Below are positions 45,487 through 57,026 of a DNA stretch of 64,000 nucleotides, piece after piece. This DNA comes from Bacteroidota bacterium (GTDB lineage Bacteria; Bacteroidota; Bacteroidia; UBA4408): positions 310,001 to 374,000 of the forward strand of contig CAUJCU010000002.1 of the NCBI GenBank assembly GCA_963169745.1. Direction: 5' to 3'. The notes beneath the pieces are model-generated. The model worked only from the letters and a program-made list of their open reading frames with translations, searched no databases and had not been told where the DNA came from. How positions within the stretch are numbered: position 1 is the stretch's first letter; every line of letters begins with the position of its first letter. The position numbers and the translations under genes are program-made.

Positions 45487-45516
45487 AAAAAAAGGTGCTG
45501 CCTATGCAGCACCTTT
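45487..45516 (-). terminator. Terminator of the PKD/T9SS operon
   Basis: Arms 45491-45501 and 45506-45516 (AAAGGTGCTGC/GCAGCACCTTT), loop of 4. On the minus strand it is followed by seven U residues, 24 bases after the stop of the leftward T9SS gene. Confidence 0.85.
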
Positions 45517-45539: not shown

Positions 45540-48248
45540 CTAATGAATACTTAGTTTTGTTGTTTTCATTTGTCCATCGTCTGTGGTGGTTTGAATAAAA
45601 TACATTCCTTTATTTAAAAGTGAAGTGTGAATTAAGAAATTATTGTTTCCTTGTTTTAAAGTTTCCTGCTGTTCCATACACTGTTTACCTTGAGTATCAA
45701 AAACACGGATACTAACATTTTGTTCTTTAGTGGCAGGTATCGTAATGTTCACATAATCTTTTGCAGGGTTAGGGTAAACCTCACTATTAGCATTGTTCAT
45801 TACTGAAGGTAAAGAGGTAAATGCAACCATAGTTACTGTAGCATCATTAGTAATTACTGCACTATTAAAATCAAAGTAAATTTCAGCATTATCCGTTATT
45901 TGTTCTCCTACATTTAAGCTGGATAGAGCATTAACTTTATAAGAAATAAAGCCATGACTTTGTGGTTCATTATTGGTAGAATCAGGGAGCATAATATTCA
46001 TAAACTTATAGGTAGTGGTGTTACCGTTTCTAATTATTTGACAGTTATGACTAGCGCTTAAAAACTGATAAGACATTAAATCTAATTTAGGCGACATGTT
46101 ATCAAGCACTACAACATTGTGAGCCGGTGCGGTACCCGTATTCTGAAAATGAATAGTATAACGTATTTCTTGATTTTGGTTGATACTAGATACAAGCTGT
46201 AAGTTAGGGTTGTTGCTATTGGTTTTAACAGACAACTTGGCATTAGGATCCCAAGATCCAACAACCACTTGATGAATAGTATCCATATTGTTGTTTAAAT
46301 TAATATCTATTCCACTTGAAGGTGATACAAAAACAGACTCTAAAGTATTGCTTCCTAATACAGCATTCTGCTGTGCATTAAAAGTAACCCAAATATAATA
46401 ACAAGAAAAAGGACTTATTATAGGAGTTGTCCAAGTAAGCGTATGAGTGGTGGTGTTAACATTATTAGCAGTTGGGCTTTGATAATCAGGAGTGAGTATT
46501 GGGTCATATTGCATTGTAACCTCAGCAGCTACAGGAGTGTTTCCTTCATTACAAACTCCAATATAGTACCATGCTCCAAAACCAGGTGTAACTGTTGTAC
46601 TAGGGTAAATAGAAACACTTATATCAACACTGCCTGGGGGTAAATACAATCCTACGTTATTATTTGCATAAACCACTCCATTTTGTGTAACATCTACAAT
46701 AGTTGTACCGGTTGTAATTGTTCCAGTACTGTAAAATCCTGTTGGAGTATAACTTACAGTATAAGTACCAACCGGAAGTAAGATATTATAAGCACCGTAG
46801 GAATCAGTATATGTTGAATATGAACCAACTTGAATTAACTGATAAGGAATACCAGACTCATTGGCATCGAAAACACCATTGTTATCAGCATCATAAAATA
46901 ATACACCAGATACCGTTGAGGCATTAAGGAAAATACCAAAATTCATTCCACAAACTGTATCATTTCCTGCAACTGTAAACGTGTAATAAGCACATCCGTT
47001 TGTGTTGCTATTGGTATCAACCGGTACAGTAAAAATACCATTATTATTGGTGCCCGGGTTTCCATAGTTGCACATAGTAAGCGTATAACTTCCCGCAGGA
47101 ACAACAAGCGAATAAGAACCGGAACTATCGGTTACTATAGTTGTTTGATAGTTATTTCCGGTAATCATTAAATATGCAAATGGAATTCCATTTTCGCCAC
47201 TATCAATAATACTGTTGCCATTACTATCTTCAAAAACAGTTCCACAAATAGATCCGTTAGATGCAGCATTACCTACCACAACCATTCCACAATAACTAGC
47301 ACAACTGTCATAAGTCATGCATACATTATAAGTACCCGGTGCAATAAAGGTGTGTATAATCACATTTGATGTACTTGTGTCAGGTGATGAACCATCTCCA
47401 AACTGCCATAAGGTAAACCCACCGGAATTAGGGGCATTTGATACAAACTGATAAACTCCGGGTCCTATTTGTGTATAAGAGTATATATAATTACATCCGG
47501 TCATATAGGAATAAGTAAGACTAGCAATACATCCGTTTACATCTATGATATTTACAGTATAAACTCCGGGTCCTGTGGGTGAAATACTAGAAGTACTGTC
47601 ACCTGTATTCCAATAATACAAATAAGGTGGAGTGCCCCCAATTGGGTTAGCTACTAACATTTGTAAAAAAGTATCTTCATAAATAGTACCTGTTAGGTTA
47701 CATCCTGAAGAAGGATTGTAACAAGCATAAGTGCTGCACCCATTGCTATCAGTAACTGTTAAACATTGGTTTGTACCAGGAACAGCAAGAATGGTTGGCG
47801 TAGTTTCTCCTGAATTCCAGGAATAAGTAAAAGGGGGTGTACCACCCGCAACATCTGGTGTAATATAATCTTGTCCATTTTGGTTATATATTAAAAAATT
47901 CAATACTAAATTACAAGGGTTGTTAACTTGTACCGTAATTAATTGACAAGCTGTGTTGGTACAACTATCCATAGTAGTAATAGATAGACAAACTTGATAA
48001 GTTCCGGTTTGTTGATATGCATGGGGAACCGAATCTCCTGAAAGCATCGTTATTCCATCACCAAAGTCCCATTCATATTGTACAATTGGTTGAGCCGACC
48101 AGGAAGAATCCAGAAAAATGAATTCGCCATTGGGGTTCATAACATAGGTAAAACCAGCCTGGCAGGTTTGTGCATTCGACTTTACAGACAGTATAACTAA
48201 CAGAAATGCTGTTAAAGAAATAAAATTTTTAAATAGTCTTGTTTTCAT
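45540..48248 (-). CDS. Large T9SS type A surface protein with PKD and SdrD-like domains
   Basis: A 902-residue exported protein. In order: signal peptide (1-26), PKD domain (about 30-110, VQYEWDFGDG), a SprB-like repeat part (GGTPPFTYSWNSGETTP and a second copy), another PKD-like domain (about 250-327), two SdrD_B-like repeats (from about 334 and 441, GTVFEDSNGN and GVLFYDADNNG), a DUF11/DUF7619-like region (from about 662, GSWDPNAK and IHFQNTGTAPAHNVVV), and a T9SS type A sorting domain (about 825-902, ending YFIQTTTDDGQMKTTKLSIH). It should be a surface adhesin-like fibre. It is the last gene of a sigma factor operon. Confidence 0.88.
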   Translation of the reverse strand: MKTRLFKNFISLTAFLLVILSVKSNAQTCQAGFTYVMNPNGEFIFLDSSWSAQPIVQYEWDFGDGITMLSGDSVPHAYQQTGTYQVCLSITTMDSCTNTACQLITVQVNNPCNLVLNFLIYNQNGQDYITPDVAGGTPPFTYSWNSGETTPTILAVPGTNQCLTVTDSNGCSTYACYNPSSGCNLTGTIYEDTFLQMLVANPIGGTPPYLYYWNTGDSTSSISPTGPGVYTVNIIDVNGCIASLTYSYMTGCNYIYSYTQIGPGVYQFVSNAPNSGGFTLWQFGDGSSPDTSTSNVIIHTFIAPGTYNVCMTYDSCASYCGMVVVGNAASNGSICGTVFEDSNGNSIIDSGENGIPFAYLMITGNNYQTTIVTDSSGSYSLVVPAGSYTLTMCNYGNPGTNNNGIFTVPVDTNSNTNGCAYYTFTVAGNDTVCGMNFGIFLNASTVSGVLFYDADNNGVFDANESGIPYQLIQVGSYSTYTDSYGAYNILLPVGTYTVSYTPTGFYSTGTITTGTTIVDVTQNGVVYANNNVGLYLPPGSVDISVSIYPSTTVTPGFGAWYYIGVCNEGNTPVAAEVTMQYDPILTPDYQSPTANNVNTTTHTLTWTTPIISPFSCYYIWVTFNAQQNAVLGSNTLESVFVSPSSGIDINLNNNMDTIHQVVVGSWDPNAKLSVKTNSNNPNLQLVSSINQNQEIRYTIHFQNTGTAPAHNVVVLDNMSPKLDLMSYQFLSASHNCQIIRNGNTTTYKFMNIMLPDSTNNEPQSHGFISYKVNALSSLNVGEQITDNAEIYFDFNSAVITNDATVTMVAFTSLPSVMNNANSEVYPNPAKDYVNITIPATKEQNVSIRVFDTQGKQCMEQQETLKQGNNNFLIHTSLLNKGMYFIQTTTDDGQMKTTKLSIH

Positions 48249-48280
48249 AGTTGGAATTTTGTAGTTAATAATGGTTTGTA

Positions 48281-49435
48281 TTAGGGATAGGCTACGCCTA
48301 GAGTATATTTTGATGCATCAATAAAAATAGAGTCATTATTATTGCTTATATTATAAAACCAGGCTTTAAAGCTCCCTTCAATCTTATATGTCTTTTGTCC
48401 ATCACTGTTTTTCTGATACGGTTCTGAATTTGAAATAACAAAAGAATTTCCTGTTTGTACATGGGGTTTATAAGGATTATAGGTACTGTATTGCTTACCA
48501 TCAGGTGCTGTATAATTTACTATAATTTTTCTAAAACCCGAATCAATAGGAATAGTTGATGGAGGGACAATGGAATACGTATAGTTAAAACCAGCAGCTA
48601 ATTCATTACCCGAAAAGTTTCCTACTAAAATGTCTTTTTGAAAGAAGTTACTGCAAGATGCGCTCGAAAGCGAATCGCGTAAAACAACTCGATAAACACC
48701 CGGCTGGCTATAAATGTAAGTGGTATTTGCTCCACTTAGTTGCCATGCTGTACTATCTCCAAAATCCCAAATATATGAAGGGGCGCTCCCGGTAGCTATA
48801 AACGAAACTAATGTTTGGCTCATAGATTGATTAAATTGAAAACGGCAAGCAGTATCTGTGGTTATTATGTTACAAATGGTTTTAGAAGGGATACCTGCCT
48901 TACTTACAGTAAGACATACATTATAATCGGCTGGTTCCGCATATTGATGTACCGGATTGGCCAAAGTAGAAGTTGCCCCATCACCAAATGTCCAATTAAA
49001 GGTATAGTTTGAGCCAGATGGATTAAAAGCATAAAAATTAAATATGCCACCGGTTAAATTTAAGTTACTGGTATCGGTTCCATTATGAAAGGAATAATTC
49101 CCGGTTTTTAAAACATCTTCCATATTGCTTACTAAAATACTGTTACGAAAACGGCTATCGCGGCAAACAATAGAAAATTCATGATTGCATTTTTCACAGT
49201 TTTCAGACCGTAAATTGCCCATAAATAAATTAAGCCCTAAAGCATCCATTTGATAGGATGTAAACATATAGTATTGGTTTTTCCCAGCAGCCATACTTAC
49301 AGCATTTCCGTTAATAGTAGCATCAATCATAAATACGGGATTGCCATTGTTTGCCTCCGGAATATCTTTCTTTTTACAAGCTTGCCATTGCATTGCAATG
49401 AGTACAATTAAAACTATTTTACTTCCAATTTTCAT
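48281..49435 (-). CDS. PKD domain lipoprotein
   Basis: A 384-residue lipoprotein; the lipobox cysteine is in IAMQWQACKKKD at about residue 20. Basic residues after the cysteine may keep it at one membrane face. There are two PKD domains (about 135-190, TFNWTFGDGATS; about 205-265, SYIWDFGDSTAW), a PKD-poor start with several cysteines (SENCEKCNHEF) and a beta-rich C-terminal part. It is 32 bases upstream of the T9SS gene and 7 after the dual-membrane protein gene; all four are one operon. It probably stands in the outer membrane, linked to the surface cargo. Confidence 0.85.
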   Translation of the reverse strand: MKIGSKIVLIVLIAMQWQACKKKDIPEANNGNPVFMIDATINGNAVSMAAGKNQYYMFTSYQMDALGLNLFMGNLRSENCEKCNHEFSIVCRDSRFRNSILVSNMEDVLKTGNYSFHNGTDTSNLNLTGGIFNFYAFNPSGSNYTFNWTFGDGATSTLANPVHQYAEPADYNVCLTVSKAGIPSKTICNIITTDTACRFQFNQSMSQTLVSFIATGSAPSYIWDFGDSTAWQLSGANTTYIYSQPGVYRVVLRDSLSSASCSNFFQKDILVGNFSGNELAAGFNYTYSIVPPSTIPIDSGFRKIIVNYTAPDGKQYSTYNPYKPHVQTGNSFVISNSEPYQKNSDGQKTYKIEGSFKAWFYNISNNNDSIFIDASKYTLGVAYP

Positions 49436-49442
49436 ACTTTCT

Positions 49443-50762
49443 TTATTTTACTTTCCTTCCATTATTCTGAAACAAATATTGAACACCTATACGCATATTA
49501 AAGTTTCTATCTTTATTATTTGTGGGGAAATAATTTTCTTTGGTTAAATCCGTAAAGCCTTTTTGAAGCATTAAATTAATCCAGAACTCATTATATACAT
49601 TAAAGGCATAATTAAATGCGGCTATTGACCCAAAGCGATTAAAGCCCGAAACATAACCCCACTGATTAGGTTCAAATTGCTGACTCCCAAATTCTTTAAC
49701 ATCACTCTTCACATTGATTAAGTACTCGGCACCAAAACCAACACTAACTTGATGATGATGCACTCTGTATCCTATTAAAAGCGGAAGTTCTGCAAAGACT
49801 AATGATTTATTATGAACAATAAATTCATCAGCATTTTGTCCAAAGTCATATTCTGTTTTAGAGGATTGCATGTTGGTATTCACAGCCCCTCTTGAATAAA
49901 TTAAAGGTTGTAAGCCAACAAACCAGTTTTTATCAATTTTGTAAGCCATACGATAGCCAATAAAAAGGGCTAATCCATTTTTGGAGCCCGATCCGTTGCC
50001 TTCAAATCCACGGCTACTTCCTATTCCGGCAACAGCAGCGTACATCCAATTAGTTTTATTTTGATTATCGCAGGCAGCAACAATATTCGGATCAATATCT
50101 CGAGCAGAGCCAGAGTTCTTTATAATGGTGGTATTAGGCTGAGCTCTTTCCAAGGCAAGGGAACTTTCTTCTTGTGCAAAAACCGACTCATTAGAATTTG
50201 TTAACTCAAAACCTTCTGAAGAGGCTATTTCTATAGTATTATTTTGCTGGAGAACTTTCTTGCTTGTTTCAATAAGCTCTTGTCCAAACTTTTCGTTCTC
50301 AGCCTGAGGAGTTGAATTAAGGGATTTTTTTAGGTTCTGAATTTTATTTTTTAGAACTGGACTTGCTTTTGAAACAGGATGAGTTGTGAGGTCTATTTCC
50401 GGTGCTGCAACTGAATTTTCTGAAATTACGGAGTGTTCTTGTACTACCTGTGTAATAGGAGTAGCCGGTTGATTCCTAATATCACTCGATGCTTGATTCT
50501 CCTGTAAGTGTACTTTTTGATTCTTAGTTATAGAACTATTTTCTTGCATAGTGCTATTCCACTGCCATATTAGCGTAGTAACACCGGTCAAAAGCAACAA
50601 CAAAAGAGTCCTGCGAATAAACTTACTAAAAATTGTCTTTTTAGATTCTTCCTTTGTAATCATACTTTCGGCCTTTAGCCAGTATGCCTCTTCGTATTTG
50701 AATTGGCTTTCACTTACCTTTTGCCTTAAAAGCGCATCAAAATTTTCATTTGTGTCTTCCAT
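49443..50762 (-). CDS. Putative dual-membrane-spanning anti-sigma factor
   Basis: A 439-residue protein with three parts. Residues 1-50 have no signal peptide, so they are likely in the cytoplasm (FDALLRQKVSESQFKYEEAYWLKAES), and should bind the sigma factor encoded 4 bases upstream. One membrane helix spans 51-67. A polar, low-complexity linker (about 70-230) follows, long enough to cross the periplasm. Residues 234-439 look like an outer-membrane beta-barrel (aromatic strands, YRMAYKIDKNWFVGLQ and MRIGVQYLFQ at the end). This layout matches the Dma family of Bacteroides, which join an ECF sigma factor to the outer membrane. Binding is not shown here. Confidence 0.75.
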   Translation of the reverse strand: MEDTNENFDALLRQKVSESQFKYEEAYWLKAESMITKEESKKTIFSKFIRRTLLLLLLTGVTTLIWQWNSTMQENSSITKNQKVHLQENQASSDIRNQPATPITQVVQEHSVISENSVAAPEIDLTTHPVSKASPVLKNKIQNLKKSLNSTPQAENEKFGQELIETSKKVLQQNNTIEIASSEGFELTNSNESVFAQEESSLALERAQPNTTIIKNSGSARDIDPNIVAACDNQNKTNWMYAAVAGIGSSRGFEGNGSGSKNGLALFIGYRMAYKIDKNWFVGLQPLIYSRGAVNTNMQSSKTEYDFGQNADEFIVHNKSLVFAELPLLIGYRVHHHQVSVGFGAEYLINVKSDVKEFGSQQFEPNQWGYVSGFNRFGSIAAFNYAFNVYNEFWINLMLQKGFTDLTKENYFPTNNKDRNFNMRIGVQYLFQNNGRKVK

Positions 50763-50766
50763 AATA

Positions 50767-51336
50767 TTAAGCTACTTTAATTTTTTTTTGTGTGGTTAAC
50801 TTTTGTTTCAAAATTTTTCTGGCTTTATGCAGGTGCCACCTCGAAACCTCTTCGGTTATTCCCAGCATATCGCTAATTTCTTTATGGTGATAGCCTTCAA
50901 TAATGTTAAGATTAAACACTTCGCGTGTAAATTCGGGCAATTGCTGAATCATTTTCATAATATCATCAGCAGCCATTTTACTGATAACAAAATTGGTACT
51001 TGCCGGCTCATAACCATAAAATCCTGTTTTATAATCTTCACTTAGGGCAACATGCTCCTTGTATCTCTTATTCTTTCTAAGCTGGTCAATTGCTGTATGC
51101 ACCGTAATAGTAATGATCCAGGCATCAAAACTTTCATTTCTCCTATAATTAGGCAAATTATTTAAAATTTTTAGAAATGATTGATTCATGATGTCCACTG
51201 CTTCCTCATTGTTATTAACATATCGCCTGCAAATACGAATTAATAAGTCAAAACAATTCTTGTACAACTGCTGTTGTGCTAAACGATTACCTTTTAAGCA
51301 ACCTTCTAGTAACTTATCATCAATGATAATTTGCAA
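50767..51336 (-). CDS. ECF sigma factor (sigma-70 family)
   Basis: A 189-residue extracytoplasmic function sigma factor. Region 2 is in residues about 20-90 (NNEEAVDIMNQSFLKIL, RNESFDAWIITITVHTAIDQLRK), and region 4 in about 125-180 (LPEFTREVFNLNIIEGYHHKEISDMLGI, SRWHLHKARKILK). It should direct RNA polymerase to its own operon and perhaps to other surface genes. The start is a TTG at 51336, as no ATG fits. The next gene, the putative anti-sigma factor, starts 4 bases on, which shows a paired system. Confidence 0.9.
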   Translation of the reverse strand: MQIIIDDKLLEGCLKGNRLAQQQLYKNCFDLLIRICRRYVNNNEEAVDIMNQSFLKILNNLPNYRRNESFDAWIITITVHTAIDQLRKNKRYKEHVALSEDYKTGFYGYEPASTNFVISKMAADDIMKMIQQLPEFTREVFNLNIIEGYHHKEISDMLGITEEVSRWHLHKARKILKQKLTTQKKIKVA

Positions 51337-51474
51337 GCCAAGTAGGTTATTCCTTCATTTTTATCTAAAGTAAAGCTTTTTATTAAAATACGATTAAAAA
51401 GAATGTTTGTGAGCAGAAAATTAAAAAAAATAATAAATTTCTGATACCGCATAAAGAAAGGGTATAAATATCTT

Positions 51475-54335: not shown

Positions 54336-57026
54336 TTAGTTTCCGCCCGTAGCCGGAGGTGTTGAAATGAGCTGAATAAATCCATGCAAAGTTTCGCTGA
54401 TATTCCCTTTAAGTTTTAAGGCCGTGTATCGGCAAATATAATAATACACCCCATCTGAACAAGGTTGCTTACTATCCTGATTTTTTCCATCCCATAATAT
54501 ATCAGGATGGGTAGAGCTAAATACTAAATTTCCCCAGCGGTTATATATTTTAATATCAACTTCAGTTATATACTTGTAGGGGAAGGGTCTAAAAAAATCA
54601 TTGACACCATCGCCATTAGGCGTAAAAACATTCGGCAATTGATAATCCGGGCAGTTATCTGCACATACCGTGTCGCTCGGTACACTTTCATTGGCATTAC
54701 TATCGAGTGCCGTTATATAATAGCATCCGGCTATAGAAATACTGTCTTTGTTATGAATAAAAGATAAATTACCATTATTATCAAAAGTAGCAATTAAACT
54801 AAAATCGGCACTGTCGTTGGTGCTATAATACATATTATAGTGTATTACATCTTGGGCACAGCTTAAGTTGGGATTAGTCCATGTTAGTGTGTTAATTATT
54901 GAATCGCAGTTAGGTTTAATTGTTAACTCAGGGGCACAAGGGGGTATATTGTCAAAAGGAACACCACATGCCTCCTGTGAGAAATTTAGAATGGGCTTAA
55001 TAATACCCGCTTCGGTATAAAAACCAGAAGAGCGAATTTTATAGCAATAAGTCCTTCCATTTGTTAAATTAATATCTATATATTGAGCTGTGTTGCTCAT
55101 TCCTATTCTTTCAAAATCGAGAGTTTGTGGATTCTGTCTGTAAACTGTAAAAGTATCTTCTGTCCAGGGGACATTTGAAGTCCAGTCCAGAAACAGTGAC
55201 TTATCGCTTGGGGTAATATCTAAATAAACTGATGATGCACAATGGGAACTTCCAATATACTTACGAGGATTTTCATTAAAAAAAGCAAGACGGTAACTGT
55301 TTGAATTGTTATAAGTGTCTATATTTAGGTGGTGATACATTGTGTCACTACTGTTACCGGGAAGAGTTACCTGACTTATAGAGTCAATGGCAAGCATATT
55401 ATTGCAATTAGAACCAAAGCTTCTGTAAATAATGTATTTATAGGGCCCCGGGAAAGTAATAGTATCAATATCACTGCGTTTAGGTGGCGACCAAATAATG
55501 GTATTTTTTCCTTGAGTGGCTGTGCTATCAACCGTAACGTGTGTTATAATAGGAACATCTTTTTTTAAAGAAACACAATCTTCATTTGATGCATAACTCT
55601 CTGCTCCATCATTAAAAAAAGCACAAATCATGTAACAATAGTCAACTCCGTGTATCAGTCCTTGTCCATTATCATTATCGGTATAAGTGTTAGTATTACT
55701 ACCGGTAACAGTAGCAATAAGCGTGTACCCGGTACTTGGCGGAACTCCGGTTTGACATTGAGCCGGAATAAAGCCAGAAGGACCATTTTTACGGTAAATT
55801 TTATAGCCCATAGCCTGAGTACAAACTGTAGGTGTCCAATTTAATATTATGTTGGTTCCTTGCGGAGTTGCCGTTAAGTTTGTGGGTGGCGGTGATACAA
55901 CGGTTATTTTAATTGTTTTGATGTCGGCTAAAGCCTGATCATTAGAACTAGAAGGGACATCAAGCGCTTTGAAAGAGACTTGATACGGTGCTTTTTTTAC
56001 CTGACTACATTCTGTTTGCCAAATAAAATTACCCGTTAAAGGTGAAGGCCCGGTTAAGTTTTGAGGAAATGTAGGCGGGTTAGGATTTAAGTTAAAAACA
56101 GAACCCGTAGCTGATAATATTATGTACTGATTATCCGGGTCTGTGGCAGTAACAGGAAGGTTTAGTAGTGTTCCCGCATCAACACAAATGTCCTGTACAT
56201 CCAGTTGGGGAGGGTTATTGTTGCAGCTTCCATCAACAAGAACCTGCATATCACGAGTAACGGTATCTATAGGCATACCATTGCGCCAACTGATAATAAG
56301 AATAACAAAATTAAACTCGCCTTGAGGCGAAGGGCAATCCCAAACAAAATCACCTGAAATAGGGTTTAATGATACGCCCGATGGCAGCGAGTACCCCACA
56401 ATATTATTCCCATTGGCTCCTTTACAAATTCCAAGTGTAAATGATAAACTATCGTTATCAGGATCTATAGCATTAGGGTTATGCACAAAACGTTTGCAAA
56501 CACATGCATTATCAATAGGTGGGTTATACAATACCACTCCACTATTGGGTCCTAAAAAAGGGCTAAGTGTTACCACAGTTTGTACATAAAATGGAACATT
56601 CACAGAATTTGGAATGTTAATGATGCCATCGTTTCGGTTGGCATCGGCAACTGAAACAGTAAATACCCCTCCTCCGGCATAGGTATGAACACATTTATAT
56701 ACATTTTTCTTAATTCCTCCTTGTCCTCCGCTTGCACCAATCAATACTTCTCCCATTTTTGCCGGAGATGGGCAAGAACCACTGGGACCATTTTGTCTTA
56801 CTGCAACGCAACTATCTCCATCGCCAAAATAAAAGGTTAATTGACAACGGTCTGCTTGTATTTGTGGCCCTATATTAGTATATGTTGTGAGCGTAAACTC
56901 TAAAGTATATGGGCTACTTCCTATTTGTTGATAGGTAATTTCTCCGGCTCTATTATGTGTAGCAAGAGCCTGATGACCGACAAAAATCAAGGTAAAGAAA
57001 AGAGCAAATTGGATAATTTTTCCCAT
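54336..57026 (-). CDS. Surface protein with T9SS type B (gliding-associated) sorting domain
   Basis: An 896-residue exported protein. Signal peptide (to about residue 22), an N-terminal beta-rich domain (HNRAGEITYQQIG, then LTFYFGDGDS), PKD-like or Ig-like folds in the middle, a fibronectin III-like domain near 385-490 (TNLTATPQGTNIILNWTP), more Fn3-like parts, and at about 795-896 a gliding-associated C-terminal domain (LPNVFTPNGDGVNDFFRPF and KIYNRWGNLVFSS), the type B T9SS signal. It should be secreted and fixed at the surface. The next gene is a similar large protein, transcribed just upstream. Confidence 0.9.
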   Translation of the reverse strand: MGKIIQFALFFTLIFVGHQALATHNRAGEITYQQIGSSPYTLEFTLTTYTNIGPQIQADRCQLTFYFGDGDSCVAVRQNGPSGSCPSPAKMGEVLIGASGGQGGIKKNVYKCVHTYAGGGVFTVSVADANRNDGIINIPNSVNVPFYVQTVVTLSPFLGPNSGVVLYNPPIDNACVCKRFVHNPNAIDPDNDSLSFTLGICKGANGNNIVGYSLPSGVSLNPISGDFVWDCPSPQGEFNFVILIISWRNGMPIDTVTRDMQVLVDGSCNNNPPQLDVQDICVDAGTLLNLPVTATDPDNQYIILSATGSVFNLNPNPPTFPQNLTGPSPLTGNFIWQTECSQVKKAPYQVSFKALDVPSSSNDQALADIKTIKITVVSPPPTNLTATPQGTNIILNWTPTVCTQAMGYKIYRKNGPSGFIPAQCQTGVPPSTGYTLIATVTGSNTNTYTDNDNGQGLIHGVDYCYMICAFFNDGAESYASNEDCVSLKKDVPIITHVTVDSTATQGKNTIIWSPPKRSDIDTITFPGPYKYIIYRSFGSNCNNMLAIDSISQVTLPGNSSDTMYHHLNIDTYNNSNSYRLAFFNENPRKYIGSSHCASSVYLDITPSDKSLFLDWTSNVPWTEDTFTVYRQNPQTLDFERIGMSNTAQYIDINLTNGRTYCYKIRSSGFYTEAGIIKPILNFSQEACGVPFDNIPPCAPELTIKPNCDSIINTLTWTNPNLSCAQDVIHYNMYYSTNDSADFSLIATFDNNGNLSFIHNKDSISIAGCYYITALDSNANESVPSDTVCADNCPDYQLPNVFTPNGDGVNDFFRPFPYKYITEVDIKIYNRWGNLVFSSTHPDILWDGKNQDSKQPCSDGVYYYICRYTALKLKGNISETLHGFIQLISTPPATGGN

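Follow-up and report, generated by a model that had tools for sequence, protein, structure and literature searches.

Four consecutive genes on the minus strand of the window (the whole stretch of 64,000 nucleotides that was analysed) probably constitute a self-contained trans-envelope switch that drives its own operon, including an adjacent gene for a T9SS cargo protein. The sequence evidence for this reading comprises: the architecture of the anti-sigma protein, the homology of its head, the co-conservation of sigma factor, anti-sigma factor and lipoprotein, the enrichment of T9SS cargo genes behind them, and a promoter motif in related genomes.

The four-gene locus and its distribution

The locus contained, from upstream to downstream: an ECF sigma factor gene (50767..51336; 189 aa, TTG start), whose product matched the Pfam domains Sigma70_r2 (1.8e-15) and r4_2 (4.6e-11); the gene encoding the Dma-like dual-membrane anti-sigma factor (49443..50762), with a predicted head (residues 1-47), TM helix (~48-66), linker (to ~236) and barrel (239-430); a PKD lipoprotein gene (48281..49435), encoding an invariant Cys20, an N-terminal domain, two PKD domains and a C-terminal domain with an (I)AVAYP end; and the T9SS type A cargo gene (45540..48248; 902 aa), with PKD, SdrD_B and DUF7619 domains and a Por_Secre_tail at residues 824-900. 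On the same strand, a putative ECF promoter (51389..51414; GCTCAC-N16-CGTA) is located 52 bp before the sigma start, and an intrinsic terminator (45491..45516; an 11-pair stem, then a T run) follows the operon. The intergenic gaps in the ORF list are 4, 7 and 32 bp from sigma to cargo gene, and the coordinates, gaps and domains given for the four minus-strand genes by the first-pass annotation were all recovered.

The same gene order, which that annotation had proposed to look for elsewhere, was found for all four genes in two genomes of the same genus, and a third genome contained the first three genes only. The sigma factor was 68-69% identical to its genus orthologues, the anti-sigma protein 42-46%, the lipoprotein 57-59% and the cargo 51-53%. 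With a profile made from the window protein and its relatives, further relatives were recovered in 119 of the 395 sampled Bacteroidia genomes; what had earlier been taken for a local curiosity is a widespread module. The sigma gene was located immediately upstream and on the same strand in 75 of the 80 fetched loci, the five matches without an adjoining sigma gene being counted as false.

Additional sigma/dual-membrane-like pairs were encountered in the same-genus genomes (L028:3931-6262, L116:9379-11001 and G002:C177), one of which adjoins T9SS-like proteins. Two other ECF sigma genes within the same genome (L029, L032) have anti-sigma-like proteins of another kind next to them, whose TM helices lie at 140-158 and 96-114. 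The window also encodes, at 54336-57026 on the minus strand, a further surface-like protein of 896 aa that carries the motif FTPNGDGVND, as is usual for type B sorting domains of the T9SS.

The anti-sigma protein and its lipoprotein companion

Searched alone against Pfam and NCBIfam, the second protein gave no match, and the assignment of a barrel therefore rests on family and fold. The most hydrophobic 19-mer of the protein is formed by residues 48-66, behind a charged head of 47 residues; its mean hydrophobicity (1.55) is slightly below the cut-off of 1.6, with values of 1.6-2.3 in the orthologues. No signal peptide was evident ahead of this helix, in agreement with the uncleaved N-terminus that had been proposed. 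Across the orthologues the head contains the motif EDNF..FLKQKV.ES.F..DE.YWLKAE.MI, and W28 is invariant in 75 homologues; the RR pair ahead of the TM helix is not kept. The linker is variable and the C-terminal part conserved among the orthologues. In the window protein the linker (residues ~90-236) is polar, with pLDDT values of mostly 23-33, and residues 71-215 contain no W, Y or C. The AlphaFold2 model, which is of low confidence (mean pLDDT 39, alignment of two sequences), showed helices in the head, one long helix over residues 40-88, hardly any structure from there to ~236 and ten strands at 239-430, and a Foldseek search with this low-confidence model retrieved the OmpA TM domain (1.5e-5), OmpW, Ail and OmpX. 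The profiles OMP_b-brl_2 (PF13568) and OMP_b-brl were matched by 37 and 21 of the 75 relatives, respectively. The beta-amphipathicity of the barrel region exceeded that of shuffles by 1.2 sd only, and a PDB sequence search with the profiles of the anti-sigma protein and of the lipoprotein C-domain gave no convincing match. Taken together, the ten-strand model, the OmpA/OmpW/Ail folds and the profile matches of the relatives make a C-terminal outer-membrane barrel likely, as the first-pass annotation had suggested, and the single anti-sigma chain probably reaches across both cell membranes.

The succession of head, single TM helix, disordered tether and C-terminal barrel, with an adjacent ECF sigma factor, is also the layout of the Dma proteins of Bacteroides, and because head, TM helix, tether and barrel agree, the window protein appears to be of the Dma kind. 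We located dma2-like operons through DUF4943, the gene reported 3' of dma2 (PMC13088901), and found two genomes with the published order: sigma factor, anti-sigma factor, DUF4943, a further gene and a nitronate-monooxygenase-like gene, these operons being recognized as dma2-like by that gene order (PMC13088901) rather than by a B. thetaiotaomicron record under that name. Alignment of the 75 homologues with the Dma2-operon proteins (hhalign) gave a probability of 97.7 and an E-value of 1.8e-12 over 71 columns of head and TM helix, which agrees with the Dma layout claimed earlier for the second protein, and the sigma factor of the dma2-like operon matched the sigma profile at 1.5e-35. As Pfam gave no match for the second protein alone, it could be read as a mere outer-membrane protein that has a sigma gene nearby by chance, but the head is conserved in the 75 homologues, nearly all of which directly follow a sigma gene, and is succeeded by a TM helix; this sigma adjacency, the conserved head and its homology to the Dma2 operon make such a coincidence very unlikely.

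In the lipoprotein family the lipid cysteine was kept in 46 of 46 aligned members and PKD domains were present in nearly all, with N- and C-terminal domains that have no Pfam name. The export signal was mixed (mostly K/R at +2 and +3; D/E at +4 or +5 each in less than half), and a structure model (pLDDT 42) was set aside. The search with the C-terminal domain yielded 76 strong matches in 65 genomes, 74 of which directly follow a sigma/anti-sigma pair: 61 come after an anti-sigma protein of the first search and 13 after one that was recognized on inspection. The other two were located at a contig end or were degenerate (one each). Since 74 of the 76 adjoin a pair while 33 pairs lack the PKD lipoprotein, the lipoprotein is, judged by gene context, a near-obligate dependant of the pair, which it would serve as a partner in sensing or else as the first output. 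Neither lipoprotein nor cargo is indispensable, because of these 33 loci without the former and the one genus member without the latter. A short lipoprotein (L247:3491-4144), of a type of ~210-240 aa that has the family C-terminal domain without PKD, was found near two tandem CCCAACC-N16-CGTGT sites that have no clear gene behind them.

Secreted cargo, promoter motifs and a parallel class

The fourth gene encodes a T9SS type A cargo, in a genome that bears the system. Its product matched Por_Secre_tail (1.5e-15) and TIGR04183 (50.3 bits, against a cut-off of 23) and has, as read from the sequence, a hydrophobic N-terminal stretch ending in NAQ; the host genome (3.0 Mb, Bacteroidia) contains the T9SS translocon SprA (2662 bits). 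A T9SS tail was found in 28 of the 37 same-strand genes that follow the lipoprotein gene, versus 40 of 426 (9%) other nearby genes (Fisher p 9e-19), with a tail profile that was built from the same gene set as was tested. Of a set of 40 neighbouring proteins, which includes three that are not the products of downstream genes, 31 were confirmed by matches to Por_Secre_tail and TIGR04183. The other domains of the cargo varied among loci and included BNR, SprB and PKD.

In related genomes the sigma gene is preceded by an ECF promoter motif, CCCAACC-N16-CGT (in its longer form ACCCAACCTTT-N13-CGT), which often stands ahead of the cargo gene too. A search for (C/T)AAC-N16/17-CGT(A/G) found the motif ahead of the sigma gene in 39 of 92 loci, where shuffled sequences gave 0-4, and ahead of the cargo gene in 16 of 37, where they gave 0-3. 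Genome-wide, eight genomes contained 24 sites of the strict form CCCAACC-N16-CGTRT (2 in the control), and 15 of these sites belong to a locus of the four-gene type; in two genomes (G132 and G191) the strict sites precede only the sigma gene and the cargo gene, and two more strict sites lie 25-28 bp ahead of other T9SS-tailed genes. The connection between regulator and T9SS surface cargo that was drawn in the first-pass annotation is upheld by these motifs, common to operon and cargo in the related genomes.

The putative promoter of the window, GCTCAC-N16-CGTA, aligns with GCTAAC-N17-CGTA of three same-genus orthologues, but is a degenerate copy, whose likeness to the motif of the distant family is not significant (p 0.83). 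For the window cargo gene, which lies 32 bp from the lipoprotein gene, a separate promoter is not required. The genus pattern does not define a regulon for the window, because across the genome it gave 12 sites versus 9 in the control, i.e. chance level. Downstream of the ECF-like promoter, at 51365-51372, a TACTTTAG box was observed, and TAnnTTAG-like boxes are present in all four genus members; because this box resembles the -7 box of Bacteroidota sigmaA, basal and ECF promoters may stand in tandem.

Two of the 75 relatives (L124:3801-5057 and L128:3795-5072) had PKD and CHU_C domains in the place of the barrel. A profile of these two gave full-length matches, from the head onward, in at least 42 of the 395 genomes (including loci L252-L301), with a sigma gene directly upstream in 28 of the 29 loci checked and with heads that proved homologous to the barrel-class heads (97.3%). 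In 16 of 21 loci at least one large CHU_C protein comes next, and GGCAACC, not CCCAACC, was found ahead of 14 of 20 sigma genes. In the mostly open-access literature that was searched, no description of this class was found. By sequence, the pattern is one of two parallel families in the Bacteroidia, matched to the secretion type of the cargo: barrel and PKD lipoprotein go with type A, and a sorting domain on the anti-sigma protein goes with type B. In a speculative reading, to which we give a rather low likelihood, both are single-chain trans-envelope anti-sigma factors, each of which governs the cargo type that goes with it. The second kind would be exported as a type B substrate of the T9SS while its head and TM helix keep it tied to the inner membrane, and its export or surface anchoring would report on the secretion route of its regulon.

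The proposed switch and its relation to known systems

In the proposed switch the Dma-like protein would be anchored in the inner membrane. On the cytoplasmic side its N-terminal head would retain the ECF sigma factor, the disordered linker would cross the periplasm, and the C-terminal barrel, of eight to ten strands, would sit in the outer membrane, probably accompanied there by the PKD lipoprotein. A disturbance of the outer-membrane end, or the binding of something to it, would make the head free the sigma factor, which would then transcribe its own operon and the adjacent gene for the T9SS type A surface protein. For the step of autoregulation there is a precedent in dma2, the deletion of which in B. 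thetaiotaomicron raised the expression of its own downstream genes, by up to ~64-fold (PMC13088901). We infer that the head binds and releases the sigma factor, that barrel and lipoprotein are in contact and that the lipoprotein is exposed at the surface.

Several signals may be envisaged for such a switch. The PKD lipoprotein could bind an external surface or glycan while positioned on the barrel, the response being an adhesin-like cargo; we regard this as quite possible, though short of probable, in view of the near-obligate companionship of the lipoprotein family and the pair, the PKD/SdrD-like character of the window cargo and the frequency of PKD domains among surface binding proteins, with the weak export signal of the lipoprotein as the point against it. 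A general control of outer-membrane stress or vesiculation, as by Dma1/Dma2, would make the T9SS cargo an incidental member of the regulon. Head and layout are indeed common with Dma2, the loss of which raises the number of vesicles (PMC13088901), but the regulon looks narrow, because the strict motif in G132 and G191 is limited to the operon and the cargo gene, and we therefore consider this control rather doubtful. That the outer-membrane end senses the T9SS cargo itself, so that supply governs its own synthesis, as the first-pass annotation had suggested, would fit with the cargo being the preferred neighbour, with the same promoter motif, with the type B sorting domain on the parallel-class anti-sigma protein, upstream of type B cargo, and with the T9SS CTD protein PorA of P. 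gingivalis, which feeds into PorXY-SigP signalling (PMC7712824). Such feedback is nevertheless unlikely: the promoter link makes the cargo an output and not a signal, cargo is absent from the genus member with the other three genes and from many trio loci, and its domains vary while barrel and lipoprotein are conserved.

How the cytoplasm of the Bacteroidota learns of events at the surface, and how surface coats are made to fit conditions, is poorly known. With the module described here a sigma factor, a sensor, a candidate sensor partner, a promoter motif and a cargo can be named, so that experiments can address what a Dma-type switch puts out. In the T9SS-tailed parallel class, gene control would be coupled to the secretion machinery itself. 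FecA-FecR-FecI resembles the proposed switch in that an ECF sigma factor receives its signal from an outer-membrane barrel via an inner-membrane anti-sigma factor, but there the barrel (a TonB-dependent transporter) and the anti-sigma factor are separate proteins, whereas in the window one chain would serve for both. The targets listed for the ECF promoters of Flavobacterium psychrophilum SM6 are, in the available part of the report, T9SS machine genes, unlike the window cargo, and that part reports no tie to a Dma-like operon (PMC9723704). PorXY-SigP/PorA of Porphyromonas gingivalis likewise connects an ECF sigma factor with a T9SS CTD protein of the cell surface, but the signal runs via a two-component system, the target is the T9SS machine and a dual-membrane anti-sigma factor is not involved (PMC7712824). 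The closest likeness is with Dma, and since Dma-type anti-sigma factors have already been described in Bacteroides (PMC13088901), the anchor itself is not new. What surrounds the anchor is different: the neighbours of Dma2 are DUF4943 and DUF4858 proteins, whereas the window has a lipoprotein of the PKD family and, next to it, a type A cargo of the T9SS, which in relatives shares a promoter motif with the operon. The lipoprotein partner and the secreted cargo look like a new and widespread variant of the Dma-type switch.
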